DNA from: Afipia clevelandensis ATCC 49720
GTDB lineage: Bacteria; Pseudomonadota; Alphaproteobacteria; Rhizobiales; Xanthobacteraceae
Direction of reading: 5' to 3'
Assembly: GCF_000336555.1 (NCBI RefSeq)
Contig: NZ_KB375281.1
Location: 62,001-126,000 of the forward strand
Length of the DNA stretch: 64,000 bases
Positions within the stretch are counted from its first letter, which is position 1; the number at the start of each line of letters is the position of its first letter. The notes under the pieces were generated by a model that made no database searches, was not told where the DNA came from, and worked only from the letters and a program-made list of their open reading frames with translations. A program made the position numbers and the translations under genes. Positions 3,525-19,368 of the stretch are shown here, one piece after another.

Positions 3525-4829
3525 TCACACATGCACGGCGGTTCGGACGCGGCCTGCATTTCCGAACACACGCAGATAGCGCGCGATCTCGGCGGGACTG
3601 CCGGTCGCCTTTTCAGGATTGTCCGAGAGCTTGACCGCAGGCTGTCCGTTGACGGATGTCACCTTGCACACCAGCGAAATGGGATCGAGATCGGCGGTGC
3701 CGTCCGGCGCGCAGCCGACAAAGTCATTTGTGAGATTGGTGCCCCAGCCGAAGCTGGTGCGGACGCGCCCGGCAAAGTGCCGGTGGGTTTCCTCGATAGA
3801 TCCGACGTCCATGCCGTCCGAGAAAATCAGCAGCTTCTCTTTCGGATTGCGCCCCTTTTCCTTCCACCACGCGATGATTTCCTCGCCGGCGGAAATCGGC
3901 GGCGCGCTGTCCGGGCGAAAGCCGGTCCAGTCGGCGACCCATTCAGGCGCATCCCGAAGGAAGGCCTTGGTGCCAAAGGCGTCGGGCAGGGCAATCAGAA
4001 GATTTCCATCATAGGTCCGGCGCCACTGATCGAGGATGAGGTAGGGCGCCCATCGAAGTTCGTTGTCATCCTTGGCGAGCGCTGCGGCGACCATCGGAAG
4101 TTCATGCGCATTGGTGCCGATCGCTTCGAGATCGTTGTCCATGGCGAGGAGCACGTTGGAAGTGCCGGTGAATGCCGGGCCAAGCCCTTCCTTGACAGCT
4201 TCGACGCACCAGCGCTGCCACAGGAAGCCGTGACGCCGCCGCGTTCCAAAGTCGGAGAGACGGAGGCCTTCGAGTTTGCGCAGCCGTTCGACCTTGGTCC
4301 AGAGCTTGGCCTTGGCGCGGGCATAAAGCACATCGAGAACGAACCGGCCCTGGCCTTTCATGGCCTGCCGCGACCGCAGTTCGTTGATGATGGCGAGCGC
4401 GGGAATTTCCCACATCGTGGTATGCGTCCACGGTCCGTGGAAGTGCAACTCATACTGACCGTCGACCGTGTGCAGTTCATATTCCGGAAGCTGGAATGCA
4501 GCGAGCCAACTGATGAAATCCGGCGAGAACATCTGGGTCTTGCCGTAGAACGTATTACCGGCCAGCCAGATCAGTTCCTTCTTGCTGAAGCGAACGGTGC
4601 GGGCGTGGTCAAGCTGTGCGCGAAGCTCGCCCTCATCAATGACGTCGCCGAGGCGAACATGGTGAGTCCGGTTGATGACCGAGAAGGTGACATGCTCGTC
4701 CGGATAGAACCTCCGGATCATCTGAAGCATCAGAAGTTTGTAGAAATCGGTATCGAGAAGGCTGCGCACGATGGGATCGAGCCGCCAGCCGTGATTGTAG
4801 GTGCGTGAAGCAATATCTGTAACAGTCAT
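3525..4829 (-). CDS. pncB: nicotinate phosphoribosyltransferase
   Basis: Forms nicotinate mononucleotide from nicotinate and PRPP with ATP, the entry step of NAD salvage. The 434-residue protein has the family N-terminus ([16 protein letters not shown]), the central [11 protein letters not shown] segment and the C-terminal phosphate-binding region IFSDGMDV...[12 protein letters not shown] start at ATG 4829 ([14 protein letters not shown]), because the 47 residues upstream in frame are not PncB-like. Its start is only 43 bases beyond the nicB stop, so nicA-nicB-pncB may be one transcript. That would put NAD salvage and nicotinate breakdown, two competing uses of one substrate, under a shared promoter. 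Confidence 0.95.
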
Positions 4830-4872
4830 GCCGGGATCATATCCGGCTCCCCGGCGGGCAACCAGAGTGATT

Positions 4873-7800
4873 TTATGGCCCGGCGGAGCGCCGGATTCGG
4901 TTAACGGTGGCCGCCAGATCGGTCCAGGGTGCCTTGTCCGGCGCGAACTGCTGCCGCAGATAGGACACAAGCTCCGCGACCTGTCCGTCGCTCAGGCTGT
5001 TCCTGAAAGCTGGCATGTATCCGAGATCGGAGGACACCGGCTGTTCGATCCCGTGCAGGATAACCTGGATGAGATTGTCCGGCATCGCGCTGTGCAGGTT
5101 GCTGTTCAGTGCCAGCGACGGCCTGGTGCCGAACAGGACAGGCCCGCCGACCTGATGGCAGACAGCGCATGCGCCCTCATAGATGCGGGCTCCGACAGGC
5201 GATGCCGATGGCGTTCTCGCGCGCGTGGCGTCTTCGAGGCGGGCGGCGAGGGCGTCCTGGGCTGCCGGAGTTATCTTTGTCTCATTGAAGGACGCCAGAT
5301 AAACCGCCATGGCGCGGATGTCTCCATCAGGGACTGCCGCCAACTCCTTCACGACCGGCGCCATCGGCCCTGCGGCGACGCCGTGAAAGCGGGAGGTGCC
5401 GGTTCGCAGATAGGCGAAGAGTTCGTCCTCGGTCCATGGAATCGGTGCCTGCGACAGCGAGGTGAGCGGCTGCGCTTCCCAGCCATCCGAAACGCCTCCT
5501 GCCAGATAGGCGCGGGCGTCTCTCTCCGCGCCGAGGGCGTTTCGCGGCGTGTGGCACGCCCCGCAATGACCAAGGCTTTCGACCAGATAGGCGCCGCGAT
5601 TCCATGTGTCCGATTGGGCCGGGTCAGCCCTGAATACCGCGGGTTTATGAAACAGCGCATTCCATCCCGCCATCAGGGGGCGAAGGTTGAACGGGAATAC
5701 GAGCGCGGTCTCGCGGTTCGTCGCGCGCACGGCGGGCTGGGCAATCAGGTAGGCATAAAGCGCCTGCAGGTCTGCGTCAGTCGTTCGGGCAAAGTGATTG
5801 TATGGGAAGGCCGGATAAAGATGCCGCCCGTCGCGATGAATGCCTTCACGCATGGCACGCTCGAAGGCCGGATAGGACCACGCGCCGATGCCGGTCTCCG
5901 GATCGGGCGTGATGTTGGTGCTGTAGATAATCCCAAACGGCGTTTCGATCGCGCGCCCGCCTGCGTTGACCACGCCATTGATCTCGGTATGGCAGCCCGC
6001 GCAATTGCCCAGCGCAGCGAGTTGATGGCCCTTGGCGATCGTTGCGGCGGAATAGGCGGATGCGTCCGGCCGCGCGATTGGAGGAATTGATCGCCACGGC
6101 AAAACGGCGGTCGCGACACCAACGACGGCGGCGCAGGTAGCCGCGATACCCGCAAGCGCTCCCCGGCGTTTGACAAGAGGATTTCGGCTTTCCCGAAATT
6201 GCGCCTGCTGCTGAATGGTTGTGTTCGGCAGAGCTTTCGGCTCGGGAGGTTTCCCGCCGTTCAGGCCGGCCAGGATGCGCTCGGGCGTCAGCGGGAGTTC
6301 GCGGAAGCGGACGCCGGTCGCATCGAATATGGCATTTGCAATCGCAGCGGCGCTCGGCACCGATGCGGATTCTCCGACGCCGAGCGGAGGCTGATCCTGA
6401 CGCGGCAGCATCAGCACGTCGATCTTCGGAACATCCGGAAATTTGATGATGGGGTAGGCGCCCCATTCGCGGCTCGCGACCGTGGTTCGGTCAAACGAGA
6501 CTTCTTCCATCAGGGCACGGCTGGCGGACTGGATGACATTGCCATGGATCTGGTGCCGAACGCCCTCGGGGTTGATCATCAGTCCGGAATCCTGCCCGGC
6601 CACGACGCGGGTCACGCTGACGTCGCCGGTGGACCTGTTGACGGCGACATCCGCGATCCATGCCGACCAGGCCGCGCCATAGCCGGGAAATTTGCTGTGG
6701 ACATAAAGCGCGTAGGCAAAGCCGCGTCCGCGCACCACGTCGCCGTCTGCTTCCGGTTGTTTCCAGACCGGGCGAGGAGCCCATTCGGCGCGCTTCGCGA
6801 CGGCCTTGACCAGATCGACCGCGCGCGGGTCTTTCAGGTAGCGCAGCCGGTATTCGATCGGATCGACGCCGGCTTCTGTTGCAAGCTCGTCGATATAGGA
6901 CTCGTGTGCAAACGTGTTGGGCAAAGCCGACACACCGCGAAACCATGAGGCGCGAACAATGGGTGGCATGTCGTGAGCGACCACCCGCATCGTGTCATAA
7001 TCGTAAGGCGGGATCGCCGTGCGGTCACCCATTTCAAACACCGCCGGGACCGGCGCCACAGCGCCGGTGAGCAGCAGCGCCAGCGTCGGCGCGCCATTCG
7101 ATGGATAACGTGTGGCGAAGTCATAAGCCGCGACGCTGCCATCAGCGTTAAGGCCGCCGTTCACGTCGATGAGTTGCGCGGTGCCCTTCGGCTCCCATTC
7201 GTGCTCCTGTTCGCGGGTGAGCTGCACGCGAACCGGCTTGCCGATTGCGCGGGACAGCAGGACGGCGTCGGCAGAGACGTCATCTGCGCAGTTACGGCCG
7301 TAACAACCCGCAGCTTCCATCCGGATCACGTCGATCTGCGATTCGGGGAGCGACAGAAGCAATGCGAGATCGGATCGGAGAATGTGAGGATTTTGCGTTC
7401 CGGACCACACACGCACCGTGCCGTCCTGCACGTCTGCGACCGAACAGGACGGGCCGATCGACGCATGCATCTGATAGGGCCAGACATAGGTCCGCTTGAT
7501 CGGCTTGTCGGCATTCGCAATTGCGTCATCGACGTTGCCCTTGTCGAGCAATGTTCGCGGGTTGCCCGGATTGGCGCGCAGCGCGTTCTCGACGTCGTCA
7601 AGGCGGGGTAGCGTCGGCGTCGGCTTCCACACGACCTTGAGCCGGCTGGCGGCTTTGATCGCGTTTTCCTCGCGCTCGGCGACGACGCCAACAAAATCTC
7701 CGATCTGCACAACGGCCACCAGTCCGGGAATATCCCGAACGGAGGATTCATCGACGGCGATCAGGCTCGTCCCGACAAAACTCCCGGCATCGACACCAGC

Positions 7801-8436
7801 GTAGGGCGGGCGAACCACACGGCCATGCAGCATGCCTGGCACGCGGACATCGTGGACGTACACCAGCTCTCCGGTTGCCTTGGCCGGAAGATCGACGCGG
7901 GGAATCGACTGGCCGACGATCTTGTATAAATCGGCTGTTTTCACTTCGACATCGTCGGCCAGTTCCAGCCGGATGACCTCATCTCCGATCAGTTCGCCAT
8001 AGCTCACGCTGCGGTTGTCGTGCCCCCGGATCAGGCCGTCTTCGATCGACAGGTCAGCCGCGGAAAGGCCGAGCCGCTCGGCGGCGCGCGCGATGAGAAA
8101 GTGGCGCGCTTGTGCCGCTGCCTTGCGCAAGGGGGTTGCCGTAATCTGGATCGTCTCGCTGGCGATGGTCGCGCCCTGATTGGGGACCTGCGAGGTGTCG
8201 CCGAGCACGACGACAACGCGGGCGAACGAGACATCGAGTTCTTCCGCGACGATCTGCCCAAGCGCCGTGCGGATGCCCGTGCCGAGGTCGACATGGCCGT
8301 TGAATGCGGTGATCGTTCCGTTCGCGCCGATCCTGATGAAAGTCTCGAAACCCGGGTCCATTGCAACCGAAGCCGCAGGACGAACCACAGCAAGCGATCC
8401 TGAGGGCTGTCGGTTCTCCTGTAACTCCTTCGCCAT
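4873..8436 (-). CDS. nicB: nicotinate dehydrogenase large subunit: molybdopterin domain fused to three cytochrome c domains
   Basis: A xanthine-dehydrogenase-family molybdenum subunit of 1187 residues. Residues 1 to about 770 form the two-part molybdopterin-binding region (for example [14 protein letters not shown] near the start and [25 protein letters not shown] near the end). A membrane-type segment near residue 770 is followed by three c-heme sites: CAGCH (812-816), CGACH (958-962) and CAVCH (1090-1094). NicB of Pseudomonas putida has this layout and hydroxylates nicotinate to 6-hydroxynicotinate, passing electrons to the respiratory chain. ATG 8436 overlaps the nicA stop (ATGA). A related aldehyde or isoquinoline dehydrogenase has the same architecture, but the neighbours favour nicotinate. 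Confidence 0.85.
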
Positions 8437-8924
8437 CACTCGCGGTCCTCGACGGCATGTCCCGCTGCGCGCTGGACCGCGCGCAGGATCTCGACATGAG
8501 CGCCGCAGCGGCACAGATTGTATTGCAAGGCCTGCCGCACTTCCGCTTCCGAAGGCTGCGGGTTTTGCATCAGCAGCGCCTTCGTGGTCATGATCATGCC
8601 GTTGAGGCAATAGCCGCATTGCGCGGCCTGTTCTTCGATAAAGGCGGTTTGCACCGGATCGGGGTGCTGGCGCGAACCGAGGCCTTCGAGAGTCAGAATG
8701 TCCCGATCTGTACAGCCGCTGATCGGGATCACGCAGGATCGCGCCGCCACGCCGTCAATAATCACCGTGCATGCGCCGCACTCGCCAAGGCCGCAGCCGT
8801 ATTTCGGGCCGTTCAGTTCCAGATCGTTGCGCAAAACATAAAGCAATGCGGTGTCGGGAGCCGCGGCGACGTCGCGGATGTTGCCGTTCACCGTCAGGCG
8901 GATCGTCGTCTGCGTCATGCTCAT
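8436..8924 (-). CDS. nicA: nicotinate dehydrogenase small subunit, two [2Fe-2S] clusters
   Basis: The electron-transfer subunit of the NicAB molybdenum hydroxylase. The plant-type ferredoxin cluster is held by the cysteines of KYGCGLGECGACTV plus a later SC, and the second cluster by AAQCGYCLNGM and YNLCRCGAH. It has about 162 residues, close to the family norm. Start choice is unclear: GTG 8930, ATG 8924 and ATG 8918 are all in frame and no strong Shine-Dalgarno decides. I use 8924. It is the first gene of the leftward operon and faces hnr across a 300-base divergent promoter region with two palindromes. Confidence 0.88.
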   Translation of the reverse strand: MSMTQTTIRLTVNGNIRDVAAAPDTALLYVLRNDLELNGPKYGCGLGECGACTVIIDGVAARSCVIPISGCTDRDILTLEGLGSRQHPDPVQTAFIEEQAAQCGYCLNGMIMTTKALLMQNPQPSEAEVRQALQYNLCRCGAHVEILRAVQRAAGHAVEDRE

Positions 8925-9226: not shown

Positions 9227-10696
9227 ATGCCGACTGAAGCGACCTCTGTTGCAGTAGCTGGCAGCGCGGACAAGATCCGCTGCGATGCATGTCCGGTCAT
9301 GTGCTATATCAAGCCGGGCGCGGCGGGCGCATGTGACCGCTATGCCAACAACAATGGCGAGCTTGTCCGTGTCGATCCGCACATCGTGCTTGAACGCACG
9401 GTGTCCCATGGCGGGCGGCTCGTTCCGTTTCAGGCCGGTGGTGACTGGGACGGAAAGATCGTTCATGAGCCAGCGGTGTTCGTGACGGCCATTGGCGCCG
9501 GCACGACGTATCCAGATTACAAGCCCGCGCCCTTCATCGTGTCGTCGGAAGTCGATGGCGTCGACATGGTTACGGTGGTGACCGAAGGCATTTTCAGCTA
9601 TTGCGGCGTCAAGGTGAAGATCGACACCGACCGTTATCTCGGACCTGAAACGGCGACAGTCCGCGTGCAGGGTGAGGCGATAGGGCATGTCACGACCGGC
9701 GAATACGGATCGCAGATGCTGTCGCTCGGCGGCGTGCATCATCTCACCGGCGGCTCGAAGAAGGAAGGCCGCGTCACCTGCGACGCGCTGATGGATTTGT
9801 CCAACGGCAAGCCGGTTGAACTCACTATTGATGGCGGTGCGACGGTTGTTGTTCAGGCAGGCTACCCGCCGATTGTGAATGGCGTGACCGAAGAGCGGAT
9901 GCGCGTCGGTTGCGGCTCGGCGACCATCGGCATGTTCGCGAAGCAATGGCATGGCAAGGTCGATGAGGTTGTCGTCGTGGACGACCACATCACCGGCGTG
10001 CTGTCCGAGCATCAGGCCGGCAAGCTGCTCGATATTCCCGACACCGGGATCAAGATGAAGGGCCGTCGGTCGACGCCGGGCCGTTATTTCCAGGTCGCCG
10101 AGCCGGGCACCGGATGGGGCGGGACCAATATCTCCGATCCCTTGTCTGTGCTGGGGCCGTTCGATCCGAAGACGGCGCAGCCCGGTCTGCGCATGATGAT
10201 GGTGAGCACGACAGGCGAGCATGCTGCCTATTTTGAGCTCGATGAGGCGCTGAAGCCTGTCGAGAAGGAGATGCCTGCCGATCTCAGATTCTCCGTGGAG
10301 CGAATTCAGGAGAACTGTGAGCCTGCACTCTGCACCGTTCTGTTTATGGGTGGGGCAGGCGGTTCGCTCAGAGCCGGCGTTACGGATAATCCGGTGCGGT
10401 TGACGCGCTCGGTCAAGGATGCGCTGACGTCAGTCACATGCGGCGGTGCGCCGGTCTATGTATGGCCCGGCGGCGGTATCACCTTCATGGTGGATGTGAC
10501 ACAAGTTCCGCAAGGCGCTTTCGGGTATGTGCCCACGCCGGCGCTGGTCGCTCCGATCGAATTTACCTTGCCATTGTCGGACTACGCCGCGCTTGGCGGC
10601 CACATGGATTATGTGCGGCCATTGGCGTCATTGAATGGGAATACGGAAGTCCGCCAATTGCCGCGGAAACGGTCAGAGCCGGGATCGCAGCCATGA
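9227..10696 (+). CDS. hnr: 6-hydroxynicotinate reductase
   Basis: Reduces 6-hydroxynicotinate to 1,4,5,6-tetrahydro-6-oxonicotinate, a ferredoxin-dependent dearomatising step. The 489-residue protein starts with a cysteine cluster C19-x2-C22-x3-C26-x9-C36, suited to an Fe-S centre, and has further Cys residues in EGIFSYCGVKVKI and RVGCGSATIG. The E. barkeri enzyme is known to carry covalent flavin and several Fe-S clusters. A near-match to a flavinylation motif, DALTSVT, is at residues 398-404. ATG 9227 is preferred to TTG 9221. Its stop overlaps the next start (ATGA). The assignment rests on family recognition and on the enamidase in the same locus. Confidence 0.85.
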   Translation: MPTEATSVAVAGSADKIRCDACPVMCYIKPGAAGACDRYANNNGELVRVDPHIVLERTVSHGGRLVPFQAGGDWDGKIVHEPAVFVTAIGAGTTYPDYKPAPFIVSSEVDGVDMVTVVTEGIFSYCGVKVKIDTDRYLGPETATVRVQGEAIGHVTTGEYGSQMLSLGGVHHLTGGSKKEGRVTCDALMDLSNGKPVELTIDGGATVVVQAGYPPIVNGVTEERMRVGCGSATIGMFAKQWHGKVDEVVVVDDHITGVLSEHQAGKLLDIPDTGIKMKGRRSTPGRYFQVAEPGTGWGGTNISDPLSVLGPFDPKTAQPGLRMMMVSTTGEHAAYFELDEALKPVEKEMPADLRFSVERIQENCEPALCTVLFMGGAGGSLRAGVTDNPVRLTRSVKDALTSVTCGGAPVYVWPGGGITFMVDVTQVPQGAFGYVPTPALVAPIEFTLPLSDYAALGGHMDYVRPLASLNGNTEVRQLPRKRSEPGSQP

Positions 10697-11613
10697 CACG
10701 GCTCCCACAAATCGGATGGCTGGCGGACGGGAGGCGGCTTCATCTGCAGGATGGTCCGATTGATTTGATTGTCGAGGCTCATGGCGCTCCGGCGATGGTT
10801 CGCGCGGGCTATGAAGCTGCCATCGGCCGCTTCACCGGACTGCTCGATGAACTTTGCGGGGAACTGCCGGAACTGCGCCGGGCTGCGCAACCGGGTGTGT
10901 GCTCTTTGAACAGTGTTGTTGCGCGCCGGATGCACGACGCGGTTGTGCCGTTTGCGGCGGATTGTTTCATCACCCCCATGGCTGCTGTGGCGGGCGCTGT
11001 TGCCGAGGAGATCCTTGGCGCGATGACAGATGCTGCCGATCTTGATCGGGCCTACGTCAACAATGGCGGCGACATCGCGCTTCATCTTGGAAAGGGACAA
11101 TCTTTTGTGGTCGGCCTCGTCGATCGCCCCGATATGCCGAGCTTGGTCGGAAAAACGAAAATTACCGCGACTGACGTCACGCGAGGCGTCGCAACCAGCG
11201 GCTGGCGCGGCCGCAGCTTCTCGCTTGGCATTGCCGATGCCGTCACGGTTTTGGCACGTCCGGCGGCGCAGGCGGACGCCGCCGCGACCATTATTGCCAA
11301 TGCCGTTGATCTGCCGGATCACCCGGCGGTGGTCCGTTGCGCGGCGCGCGACGTTCAGCCTGACAATGATCTTGGGGCGCGTCTCGTGACCCGCGACGTT
11401 GGCCGGTTGCCGTTTCGCGATATTCAGATCGCGCTCGACGCGGGCGTGAACTGCGCGCGCAATCTGGTTGCGGCCGGCTTGATCGAGGGTGCCGCGCTTC
11501 ACCTGCAAGGCGAAACGCGCGTCGTCGCCTTGAAAGATATCGAGACTCAGCCGCCTTTCGCGTTCCGGCGGGAGCCGATGCCAATAAAAGCCGAAAGCCT
11601 GATGTATGCCTGA
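10693..11613 (+). CDS. UPF0280 family protein (ApbE-like fold), candidate flavin transferase for Hnr
   Basis: A 306-residue protein whose central AYVNNGGDIALHL and the segment DVTRGVATSGWRGRSFSLGIADAVTVLA are typical of UPF0280, a family placed in the ApbE-like superfamily. ApbE proteins attach FMN covalently to Thr/Ser in target proteins. NGGDI is the counterpart of the ApbE NxGG(D/N) flavin/metal-site region. The start ATG overlaps the hnr stop, which suggests the two products are made together. The specific role in Hnr maturation is my inference; UPF0280 members have, to my knowledge, no settled function. Confidence 0.82.
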   Translation: MTRLPQIGWLADGRRLHLQDGPIDLIVEAHGAPAMVRAGYEAAIGRFTGLLDELCGELPELRRAAQPGVCSLNSVVARRMHDAVVPFAADCFITPMAAVAGAVAEEILGAMTDAADLDRAYVNNGGDIALHLGKGQSFVVGLVDRPDMPSLVGKTKITATDVTRGVATSGWRGRSFSLGIADAVTVLARPAAQADAAATIIANAVDLPDHPAVVRCAARDVQPDNDLGARLVTRDVGRLPFRDIQIALDAGVNCARNLVAAGLIEGAALHLQGETRVVALKDIETQPPFAFRREPMPIKAESLMYA

Positions 11614-12190
11614 CATTGTCGTCCGCAAACGCGCAACAGTGATCGAGGAGATTTTTCACGAAGGCGGAAAGCCGTCGGCGACGCCGTTGCGCCGCGGCGC
11701 GATCCTCTGCGTGATCCGCAACCCTTTCGCGGGACGCTATGTGGAAGAGATCGCGGGATTCATGGATGACCTGACGCCGCTCGGCGTGTCGATGGCCGGT
11801 GCGCTGCTGAAGGCGCTGGGCGGCGATCCGGCAGCAATCCAGGGCTATGGCAAGGGCGCGATCATCGGCTCCGCCGGCGAGCTTGAGCACGGCGCACTAT
11901 GGCATGTGCCCGGCGGCTATGCGATGCGCGAGATTCTCGGTGAGGCAAAAGCCATTGTGCCGTCCGCCAAGAAGGTGGGTGGTCCCGGAACGCGGCTTGA
12001 TGTTCCGATCACGCATATCAACGCGTCCTATGTGCGCTCGCATTTCGATGCCATGGAAGTCGGTATTCCGGACGCGCCGCGCGCGGACGAATTGCTACTG
12101 GCGCTTGTCATGACAACGGGCTCGCGCATTCATGCGCGCGTCGGCGGGCTCAAGGCCAGCGACATCAAGGGAGAGGATGGACTGCGATGA
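11606..12190 (+). CDS. PF06684 (DUF1185, 'amino acid synthesis') family protein, copy 1
   Basis: A 194-residue cytoplasmic protein with the family signatures ENPFAGxY-like (RNPFAGRYVEEI), QGYGKGAIIGSAGELEHGALWH and SYVRSHFDAMEVGIPDAPRADELL. Structures of this family were described as a variant of the Bacillus chorismate mutase fold, without a proven reaction. It overlaps the UPF0280 stop by 8 bases and its own stop overlaps the start of a second, related gene. The pair sits between hnr and the transporter, so a role in nicotinate breakdown after ring reduction is plausible. No reaction can be assigned from sequence. Confidence 0.85.
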   Translation: MPDIVVRKRATVIEEIFHEGGKPSATPLRRGAILCVIRNPFAGRYVEEIAGFMDDLTPLGVSMAGALLKALGGDPAAIQGYGKGAIIGSAGELEHGALWHVPGGYAMREILGEAKAIVPSAKKVGGPGTRLDVPITHINASYVRSHFDAMEVGIPDAPRADELLLALVMTTGSRIHARVGGLKASDIKGEDGLR

Positions 12191-12771
12191 GTGCCGTCAT
12201 TCGCAAGATCGTCACGGTGGTCGAGGAAACTTTGATTGAGGGTGGACGCGATGTTGCGCCGCCGACCCGCCGTGCGGCTGCAATTGCCGTCATCGAAAAT
12301 CCATTCGCTGGAAAATACGTCGCCAATCTCGATCCTCTGATCGCCATTGGCGAAGAACTGGGCGAACTGCTTGCGATGAAGGCGGTTGCCGCGCTTGGTA
12401 TCGAAGGCAGCAAGGCGCAAAGCTATGGCAAGGCGGCCGCTGTGGGCGAGAATGGTGAACTGGAGCACGCGGCAGCGATCTTGCATCCCAAAATGGGCGC
12501 GCCGGTGCGCAAGGTTCTCAGCAAGGGGGCGGCGTTGATTCCGTCGTCAAAAAAACGCGGCGGACTGGGAGCGGTGCTCGACATTCCGCTCGGTCACAAG
12601 GACGCGGCTTTCGTGCGCAGTCACTTCGACGGCATGGAAGTGCAGATCAACGACGCGCCGCGCGCCAATGAAATCATGGTCGCGGTTGCTGTGACAGATA
12701 GCGGACGGCCGCTGCCGCGTGTCGGTGGTTTGACTGTGGACGAGATCAAGGGCGAGGACGGGTTGCGTTAG
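12187..12771 (+). CDS. PF06684 (DUF1185) family protein, copy 2
   Basis: A 194-residue paralogue of the preceding protein with the same landmarks: ENPFAGKYVANL, SYGKAAAVGENGELEHAAAILH, and AFVRSHFDGMEVQINDAPRANE. The length is identical and both end in IKGEDGLR. The conserved Gly-Glu-Leu-Glu-His stretch and the RSHFDxMEV segment are likely active-site or interface elements because they are kept in both. The ATGA overlap with copy 1 suggests they make a heteromer. Divergence between the two is considerable outside the motifs, so this is not a recent duplication. Confidence 0.85.
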   Translation: MSAVIRKIVTVVEETLIEGGRDVAPPTRRAAAIAVIENPFAGKYVANLDPLIAIGEELGELLAMKAVAALGIEGSKAQSYGKAAAVGENGELEHAAAILHPKMGAPVRKVLSKGAALIPSSKKRGGLGAVLDIPLGHKDAAFVRSHFDGMEVQINDAPRANEIMVAVAVTDSGRPLPRVGGLTVDEIKGEDGLR

Positions 12772-18084: not shown

Positions 18085-19284
18085 CTAGTGTCCCACGATT
18101 TCCGGCACCTTGGTCGCCGGTGGCGTGTTGCGGCTGCGCTGGGTGCGAACGATGCCGTCGATAATGGTCATGCCGATGCCGGGCAAGTCGCCGAGCTGAA
18201 CGCTTTCGAGCAAGTTCTTTCCGGCGGAATGCTGCGCCTTGTCCATAATGACGAAATCGGCGGCGCGGCCGGGTTCGATGATGCCGCAATCGAGCGCGCG
18301 CATCCGTGCGGTGTTGCCGGTCGCGAAGCAGAAAGCCAGTTCAGCGGGCACCTCGCCGAGCGATGACAGCAGCGACACCATGCGCAGAATGCCGAGGGGT
18401 TGAACGCCCGATCCGGCAGGCGCGTCGGTCCCGAGGATCACCCGGTTCAGTTCTTTCATCTCGCGTGCAAGCCGCAGCGTGTAAAGCGCGGCGCGCTCAT
18501 TGCCGTTGTGAACCAGTTCGAGGCCGCGCTTGCAGCCTTCGCAGATACAGCGGATCTGTCCGTCGGGCAGGGCGGTATGGCCGCCATTGATATGGCCGAC
18601 GATATCGGTGTCGGCTTCGAGAACCACATCCGCGTCGATCAGGCCGGAGCCGGGAATCGACGGGCCGCCGGTATGGATCGTGCTGTTCATGCCATACTTG
18701 CGGGCCCAGGCCACCATCTTCCGCGCAGTCGGGCCGTCCTTGACGCTGCCGAGGCCGACTTCACCGAGCCAGCGGACACCCGCCGTCGCCATTTCCTTGA
18801 AGTCTTCTTCTGTCATGCCGTGTTCGATCACCGGTGCGCCGGCATGAACCTTGACGCCGCCGGGCCGCAGATTGTCGAACGCGCGCTGGGCGAAAATCGC
18901 CATCGCCTTGACGCCCACGATGTCCTTCGGCCGGCCGGGCATGTGGACCTCGCCCGCCGAGATCATGGTGGTCACCCCGCCATGCAGGAAGCTGTCGATC
19001 CAGCCGATCTGGTTCTGGCGCGGCGTCCATTCGCCGGCGACGGGGTGAACGTGGCTGTCGATCAGCCCGGGGGTGACGACTGTCCCGTTGGCATCGACGA
19101 GAGTGGTGGCGCCTTCCGTGTCGATGTCCTTGGCCCGTCCGATGGCGGTGATCTTGCCGTTGTCCGTGACGATGGTGTCGGCGTCCAGGATCGGCTTGTC
19201 GATGTCTCCGCTCAGGATCAGGCCGATATTGCGGATCACCAGCCGGGTCGGGCCGGCGGGGGCCTGGGGCGCATCGTGGGACAT
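18085..19284 (-). CDS. ena: enamidase (1,4,5,6-tetrahydro-6-oxonicotinate hydrolase)
   Basis: A 399-residue amidohydrolase that opens 1,4,5,6-tetrahydro-6-oxonicotinate to ammonia and 2-formylglutarate. Likely metal ligands are His78 and His80 (SHVHP), Glu175 (GEVGLGS), His204 (HTGG), His231 (HINGG) and Asp287 (GTDAP). From memory the E. barkeri enamidase has the same sequence landmarks: TPGLxDxHVH, LHGGVTTMISAG, GRPKD, GEVGLGxxK, HTGGxSIPGS, and the terminal SRNTPPA. I start at ATG 19284, which has AGAAGGA upstream; the ORF extends 15 codons further. It is transcribed opposite to the hnr operon and divergently from fpr. Confidence 0.9.
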   Translation of the reverse strand: MSHDAPQAPAGPTRLVIRNIGLILSGDIDKPILDADTIVTDNGKITAIGRAKDIDTEGATTLVDANGTVVTPGLIDSHVHPVAGEWTPRQNQIGWIDSFLHGGVTTMISAGEVHMPGRPKDIVGVKAMAIFAQRAFDNLRPGGVKVHAGAPVIEHGMTEEDFKEMATAGVRWLGEVGLGSVKDGPTARKMVAWARKYGMNSTIHTGGPSIPGSGLIDADVVLEADTDIVGHINGGHTALPDGQIRCICEGCKRGLELVHNGNERAALYTLRLAREMKELNRVILGTDAPAGSGVQPLGILRMVSLLSSLGEVPAELAFCFATGNTARMRALDCGIIEPGRAADFVIMDKAQHSAGKNLLESVQLGDLPGIGMTIIDGIVRTQRSRNTPPATKVPEIVGH

Positions 19285-19368
19285 GGATTGTTCCTTCTGT
19301 TCAATGCCTTCGCGGCAGTCCTGATCCAACTTGAGCGCGGCTTGACGGCGGGATCAAGCTGGATTATT

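Follow-up and report, generated by a model that had tools for sequence, protein, structure and literature searches.

The stretch of DNA analysed (the window; 64,000 nucleotides of Afipia clevelandensis ATCC 49720) carries hnr, encoding a 6-hydroxynicotinate reductase-like protein (Hnr), and immediately after it a gene for a UPF0280 (COG2122) protein (Table 1). The hnr stop and the UPF0280 start share ATGA, and the overlap described in an initial annotation of this DNA is indeed present at the coordinates of both open frames. Among genome contigs, the closest relatives of Hnr come from Afipia (up to 96% identical). UPF0280 is followed by a tandem pair of AA_synth (PF06684) genes and then by genes for a periplasmic binding protein and a permease of the branched-chain amino acid type; after the permease, two ABC ATPase-like frames were seen by eye. 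Upstream of hnr and divergent from it, a single frame with molybdopterin-binding and cytochrome c domains is probably the large subunit of nicotinate dehydrogenase fused to its cytochrome, and a gene for a 2Fe-2S subunit is likewise divergent. Farther along are a MarR regulator, an amidohydrolase and a protein with FAD- and NAD-binding reductase domains. Beside this degradation cluster we also noted by eye a nicotinate phosphoribosyltransferase-like frame (3525-4970, minus strand); genes for vitamin B3 salvage and breakdown may adjoin in the window. A nicotinate cluster is known from strain SG-6C, and the gene set of the window fits that cluster as presented in excerpts of its description (PMC3511419).

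Table 1 Features of the hnr-UPF0280 locus, in positions of the window
Feature	Position	Strand	Basis or remark
Frame with molybdopterin-binding and cytochrome c domains	4873-8619	-	Divergent, upstream of hnr
hnr, 6-hydroxynicotinate reductase-like protein, 489 aa	9227..10696	+	Open frame from ATG 9227 to TGA 10696; names of homologues
N-terminal Cys cluster of Hnr, C19-x2-C22-x3-C26-x9-C36	9281..9334	+	Cys at each of the four positions in 199-201/203 Hnr, remainder gaps
DALTSVT, Hnr residues 398-404, flavin site proposed in the initial annotation	10418..10438	+	DALTSVT itself in 15/203 Hnr
UPF0280 / COG2122 protein, 306 aa	10693..11613	+	ATG 10693, stop ends at 11613; NF003322 and 2o34 matches; ApbE fold
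UPF0280 NNGGD, residues 123-127	11059..11073	+	N123, G126 and D127 invariant in 169/169
UPF0280 T168-S169-G170, equivalent to E. coli ApbE T254-S255-G	11194..11202	+	hhalign; S169 in 169/169
UPF0280 R174-S-F-S-L-G-I-A-D182	11212..11238	+	R174, S175, S177 and G179 in 169/169; D182 in 168/169
UPF0280 A194-D195-A-A-A-T199, equivalent to E. coli ApbE A298-D299...T303	11272..11289	+	D195 and T199 in 169/169
AA_synth (PF06684) tandem pair	11606-12190 and 12187-12771		Directly 3' of UPF0280
Amidohydrolase, could be enamidase	18085-19329		Separately encoded

The identity of Hnr is supported by homology to named Hnr proteins together with the nicotinate-catabolic neighbourhood (molybdopterin and 2Fe-2S dehydrogenase genes, amidohydrolase). 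On plasmids, homologues occur in 26 records at 60-80% identity, and in 17 of these the matched gene is annotated as 6-hydroxynicotinate reductase. No Pfam family scored over its cut-off in Hnr, and a search against PDB sequences gave no match at E up to 1. Structure prediction reached a mean pLDDT of only 37.6, probably owing to a shallow input alignment (85-96% identity). An alignment of 203 non-identical Hnr sequences with at least 80% coverage, from which shorter ones had been removed, contains eight conserved Cys.

Hnr and UPF0280 co-occur one to one. With presence defined as E 1e-3 or better, Hnr was found in 68 and UPF0280 in 69 of the 385 genomes of a class sample, and every one of the 68 Hnr genomes carried UPF0280. 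The two proteins occupied the identical 32 genomes of a phylum sample (398 genomes, some shared with the class sample), and within the genus (29 genomes) the same 17 had both genes and 12 had neither. Plasmids gave the same picture: all 26 Hnr records also had UPF0280, among 27 UPF0280 records in total, and relaxing the UPF0280 search to E up to 10 added only four further plasmid records, at E 0.1 or worse. The question of whether the two genes always co-occur is thus answered, from the side of Hnr, by 68/68, 32/32, 17/17 and, on plasmids, 26/26. The 27th plasmid record belongs to Hydrogenophaga BPS33, in which, by eye, the end of an Hnr frame is flanked by an IS1071 transposase gene on one side and UPF0280 on the other. 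That plasmid (L141, 4050-22480) carries UPF0280 at four places, within repeats that also contain IS1071 transposase genes, and at the copy inspected by eye hnr is reduced to its end. The sole exception in the class sample, G099, has a UPF0280 relative (L176, 2852-3607; 32% identical, E 8.9e-5) and no Hnr match in the genome; inspection by eye of the genes around this relative showed none with an evident role in nicotinate metabolism. UPF0280 matches in two pieces in six class-sample genomes (G064, G087, G194, G292, G303 and G358) and an Hnr match consisting of two overlapping frames in G028 were counted as present; frameshifts, inserts or contig breaks may account for such split matches in some genomes. 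Viral contigs gave pattern matches, but no relative was confirmed among them.

Gene order is equally constant. Across 163 loci with distinct Hnr (drawn from L003-L111 and L142-L208), UPF0280 lies downstream of hnr on the same strand in 160, and in the remaining three the contig ends 0-486 bases from hnr. Five of the 160 were first labelled 'other' because their open frames reach far upstream, the actual gaps being -7 to 8 bases. The distance between the two genes, measurable in 159 loci, is most commonly a 4-base overlap; six gaps measure at least 98 bases, the largest being 757 (G028, whose hnr is split between two frames, with under 100 bases separating the second piece from UPF0280) and the next 479. 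Where at least 4 kb of downstream sequence was available (98 loci), UPF0280 was the most constant of ten cluster genes counted (98/98), against 90 for each of the two dehydrogenase genes, 84 for the AA_synth pair, 83 for MarR, 81 for the permease, 78 for the binding protein, 29 for the amidohydrolase, 8 for an AtzH-like gene and 7 for an amidase; the counts for genes distant from hnr are underestimates, as the loci do not extend far enough. As the most constant neighbour of hnr, UPF0280 is therefore tied to Hnr itself and not merely to the pathway. The earlier reading that UPF0280 belongs with Hnr is upheld by one-to-one co-occurrence, adjacency and presence in 98/98 loci, compared with 90/98 for the next gene. 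Such co-occurrence reflects a shared function and says nothing on chemistry; UPF0280 is very probably a dedicated maturation partner of Hnr.

Membership of UPF0280 in its own family is clear from the NCBIfam model NF003322 (PRK04334.1-2; 415.9 bits against a cut-off of 290, E 7e-125), and the protein has a sequence match to 2o34 (E 2e-8). The Pfam ApbE family (PF02424) matched at E 2e-4 with 21.4 bits, below the gathering cut-off of 25.6. Aligning a UPF0280 profile (n = 169) with an ApbE profile (n = 31) in hhalign gave a probability of 94% and E 1e-7 over UPF0280 residues 101-202. The structure model of UPF0280 (pLDDT 85.9) matched 19 ApbE, Ftp and FmnB entries with Z 14.4-16.4 over 206-222 residues, within model residues 10-289, and matched DVU1097 (2o34) with Z 20.1; the next fold after the ApbE type was uricase, at Z 8.0. 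Foldseek TM-scores to ApbE entries were moderate (0.31-0.52 by query length). In the model, two T-fold domains are predicted in the arrangement seen in ApbE. Placement of UPF0280 in the ApbE-like superfamily, as initially claimed, is borne out by the profile and fold comparisons together with the sub-threshold Pfam match. The modelled likeness extends over nearly the whole chain, yet the active site is incomplete.

Excerpts of a review name S241, H257 and D285 of Vibrio cholerae ApbE as conserved residues of the catalytic centre (PMC12052999), a spacing identical to that of S255, H271 and D299 in E. coli ApbE. The Ser and Asp are retained, S169 and D195 of UPF0280 aligning to E. coli S255 and D299, and R15, N123, D127, R174, S175 and S177 are further residues invariant in 169/169 sequences. 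At the place of UPF0280 residues 174-182, ApbE has a longer stretch containing the general-base His within HxxDPxxG, and the profile alignment gave no counterpart of this His (V. cholerae H257, E. coli His271) in UPF0280. Flavin transfer by UPF0280 is plausible because the ApbE fold is accompanied by invariance at several ApbE active-site positions. Hnr-linked UPF0280 has no conserved Cys (the best column has Cys in 99/169), which disfavours a persulfide carrier role in this branch.

We found no canonical ApbE (PF02424) match in the genome of the window (4.40 Mb, single contig), nor in 39 of the 68 Hnr genomes (34 of the 61 of good quality). ApbE is present in the other 29, and the canonical enzyme may therefore be the transferase in those. 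Should Hnr in the 39 genomes with no ApbE match carry covalent flavin of the ApbE type, UPF0280 is the sole candidate found for attaching it.

Thr404 of Hnr had been proposed as the flavin acceptor because of its position in DALTSVT, a stretch that does lie at Hnr residues 398-404. The ApbE target pattern given in excerpts of the review is D-x-x-[ST]-G-A-[ST] (PMC12052999), and it occurs in 0/203 Hnr, whether at 398-404 or elsewhere. The statement that DALTSVT is one residue away from the target holds by the relaxed pattern of the initial annotation, under which it is the only site in this Hnr at 4/5 constrained positions, but this is chance level, as 21.7% of shuffled Hnr sequences (n = 2000) have at least one such site, and by the stricter review pattern it reaches 3/5, level with three other sites in the protein. 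Within the family, 4/5 constrained positions are matched at 398-404 in 15/203 Hnr. Asp398 occurs in 120/203 (20/59 representatives at 85% identity), the fifth position of the stretch is never Gly (Arg is usual, in 125, and Ser402 occurs in 15/203), and the sixth is never Ala (Val in 201). Because the motif is not conserved among Hnr homologues, the choice of Thr404 by motif is unsupported, and with no Hnr fitting the pattern and shuffles so often equally close we rejected it as evidence; judged by sequence, the resemblance of DALTSVT to the target most probably arose by chance in this lineage. Residue 404 itself is Thr in 188/203 and Ser in 15/203, one of 28 positions at which Ser and Thr together account for 98% or more of the sequences. 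As Thr or Ser thus occupies it in all 203, Thr404 is perhaps still the flavin site, at a low probability. Thr233 in the conserved GCGSAT stretch, considered as an alternative, is unlikely since the position is Ala in 17/203. According to the same excerpts, replacing the Asp of the ApbE target motif has a minor effect and replacing Gly or Ala leaves flavinylation at about 50% (PMC12052999), so a relaxed ApbE target site in Hnr is conceivable.

We propose that UPF0280 is a cytosolic maturation enzyme dedicated to Hnr and built on the two-domain ApbE fold, an explanation to which, taken whole, we give about an even chance. It would most likely move the FMN part of Mg-FAD onto Hnr, or otherwise load flavin, with flavin the presumed cargo, Hnr the presumed acceptor and the cytosol the presumed place. 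Its putative catalytic site would comprise the retained Ser169, Asp195 and Thr199, with a different general base replacing the ApbE His. The observations behind the proposal are the one-to-one co-occurrence and adjacency of the two genes, the fold, the pattern of kept and lost active-site positions, and a genome in which no other ApbE was found. Of the original assignment of UPF0280 as the Hnr flavin transferase, the tie to Hnr, the ApbE fold and the ApbE-free genome stand, whereas Thr404 as designated by motif does not, and the ApbE His and HxxDPxxG are missing. These missing elements, the absence of the target motif from Hnr, a relative called a sulfur trafficking protein and the presence of ApbE in 29/68 Hnr genomes all count against transferase activity, and we hold the case for UPF0280 as a flavin transferase, an unusual one, to be finely balanced.

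Relatives of UPF0280 have been linked to sulfur metabolism. Excerpts of three papers (PMC5764234/PMC12068725/PMC9431491) report that Desulfovibrio requires COG2122 to make homocysteine: mutants need methionine, and the fitness pattern matches that of DUF39 almost exactly (r = 0.98). The requirement extends to DUF39 and NIL/ferredoxin proteins, and COG2122 is suggested to take part in persulfide modification. The same sources term MA1715 a sulfur trafficking protein and describe Cys residues clustered at the C terminus of the Methanococcus voltae relative as a potential Fe-S binding site. The initial description of the family as one without a function was accordingly overstated, because Desulfovibrio mutants need methionine and MA1715 has been called a sulfur trafficking protein. 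Among 14 control genomes, the COG2122 model NF003321 matched Methanocaldococcus jannaschii and Methanosarcina acetivorans, both of which also have HcyBio, and Synechococcus elongatus has HcyBio only. Hnr gave no match to HcyBio (DUF39) at E up to 1, and HcyBio was found in 0/200 genomes of the phylum sample. Delivery of sulfur to Hnr, or assembly of its iron-sulfur clusters, as proposed for COG2122 in methanogens, would fit the homocysteine, persulfide and trafficking reports, the Fe-S-binding potential in M. voltae, the pairing of NF003321 with HcyBio in the two archaea and the conserved Cys of Hnr, but Hnr-linked UPF0280 lacks a conserved Cys and its invariant residues include those aligned to the ApbE site, and we consider this role unlikely.

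The missing ApbE His would also suit a protein that has lost transfer activity, and UPF0280 could then be an accessory subunit of Hnr, or a non-covalent binder of FAD or another nucleotide, that leaves Hnr unmodified. Gene overlap and one-to-one co-occurrence also fit this, but invariance of the ApbE-aligned Ser, Asp and Thr would be unusual for a purely structural relative, and the Eubacterium barkeri Hnr was reportedly purified as one kind of polypeptide; we judge such a role rather improbable. Many covalent flavoproteins self-assemble and Hnr lacks the ApbE motif, but self-flavinylation of Hnr, with UPF0280 as a separate enzyme of the nicotinate pathway, is the least probable reading, given UPF0280 in 98/98 loci against 7 to 90/98 for other cluster genes (the distant ones undercounted) and a possible enamidase that is already separately encoded.

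Full-text search of open-licence papers found no proposal of a flavin link between UPF0280 and Hnr in the excerpts it returned, nor did it find the name UPF0280. If UPF0280 does load flavin onto Hnr, a family studied mostly by genetics would acquire an enzyme activity, and the flavin transferases would gain a member whose catalytic base and target both differ. The finding would also explain how covalent flavin could be attached to Hnr in bacteria without ApbE, and would put the mechanism of homocysteine synthesis in methanogens and sulfate reducers back in question. Even the lesser result, the constant association of Hnr with a single dedicated partner of ApbE fold, is reason to co-express UPF0280 whenever Hnr is expressed. 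It is conceivable, though doubtful, that every COG2122/UPF0280 protein transfers flavin in the cytosol as an ApbE-like enzyme whose active site has been redesigned, and that each serves a single iron-sulfur-linked reductase. In nicotinate degraders this reductase would be Hnr; in methanogens and sulfate reducers it would be DUF39 (aspartate semialdehyde sulfurtransferase). DUF39 proteins would then carry covalent flavin, and 'sulfur trafficking' would be an indirect consequence of a reductase left immature.

Among known systems, the closest to Hnr of the window include the 6-hydroxynicotinate reductase of E. barkeri, which is reported to carry covalent flavin together with one 2Fe-2S and two 4Fe-4S clusters, a cofactor content that would need more Cys than the eight conserved here. 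The Hnr homologue of Bradyrhizobiaceae strain SG-6C is given as 42% identical to E. barkeri Hnr in excerpts of its report (PMC3511419). With ApbE, Ftp and FmnB (PF02424), the FAD:protein FMN transferases, UPF0280 shares the fold over nearly the whole chain and the TSG and ADxxxT positions; it differs in lacking HxxDPxxG and the His base, in falling below the Pfam cut-off and in having a partner, Hnr, without D-x-x-[ST]-G-A-[ST]. DVU1097 (2o34), a COG2122 protein, is a near-complete fold match and has the NGGD, SxSLGxxD and ADAAAT stretches in common with UPF0280, but has, by eye from the alignment spacing, a His at the place of R174. The partners also differ: COG2122 proteins (DVU1097, MA1715) are paired in the published excerpts with DUF39 (COG1900) in homocysteine synthesis, whereas UPF0280 of the window is paired with Hnr.
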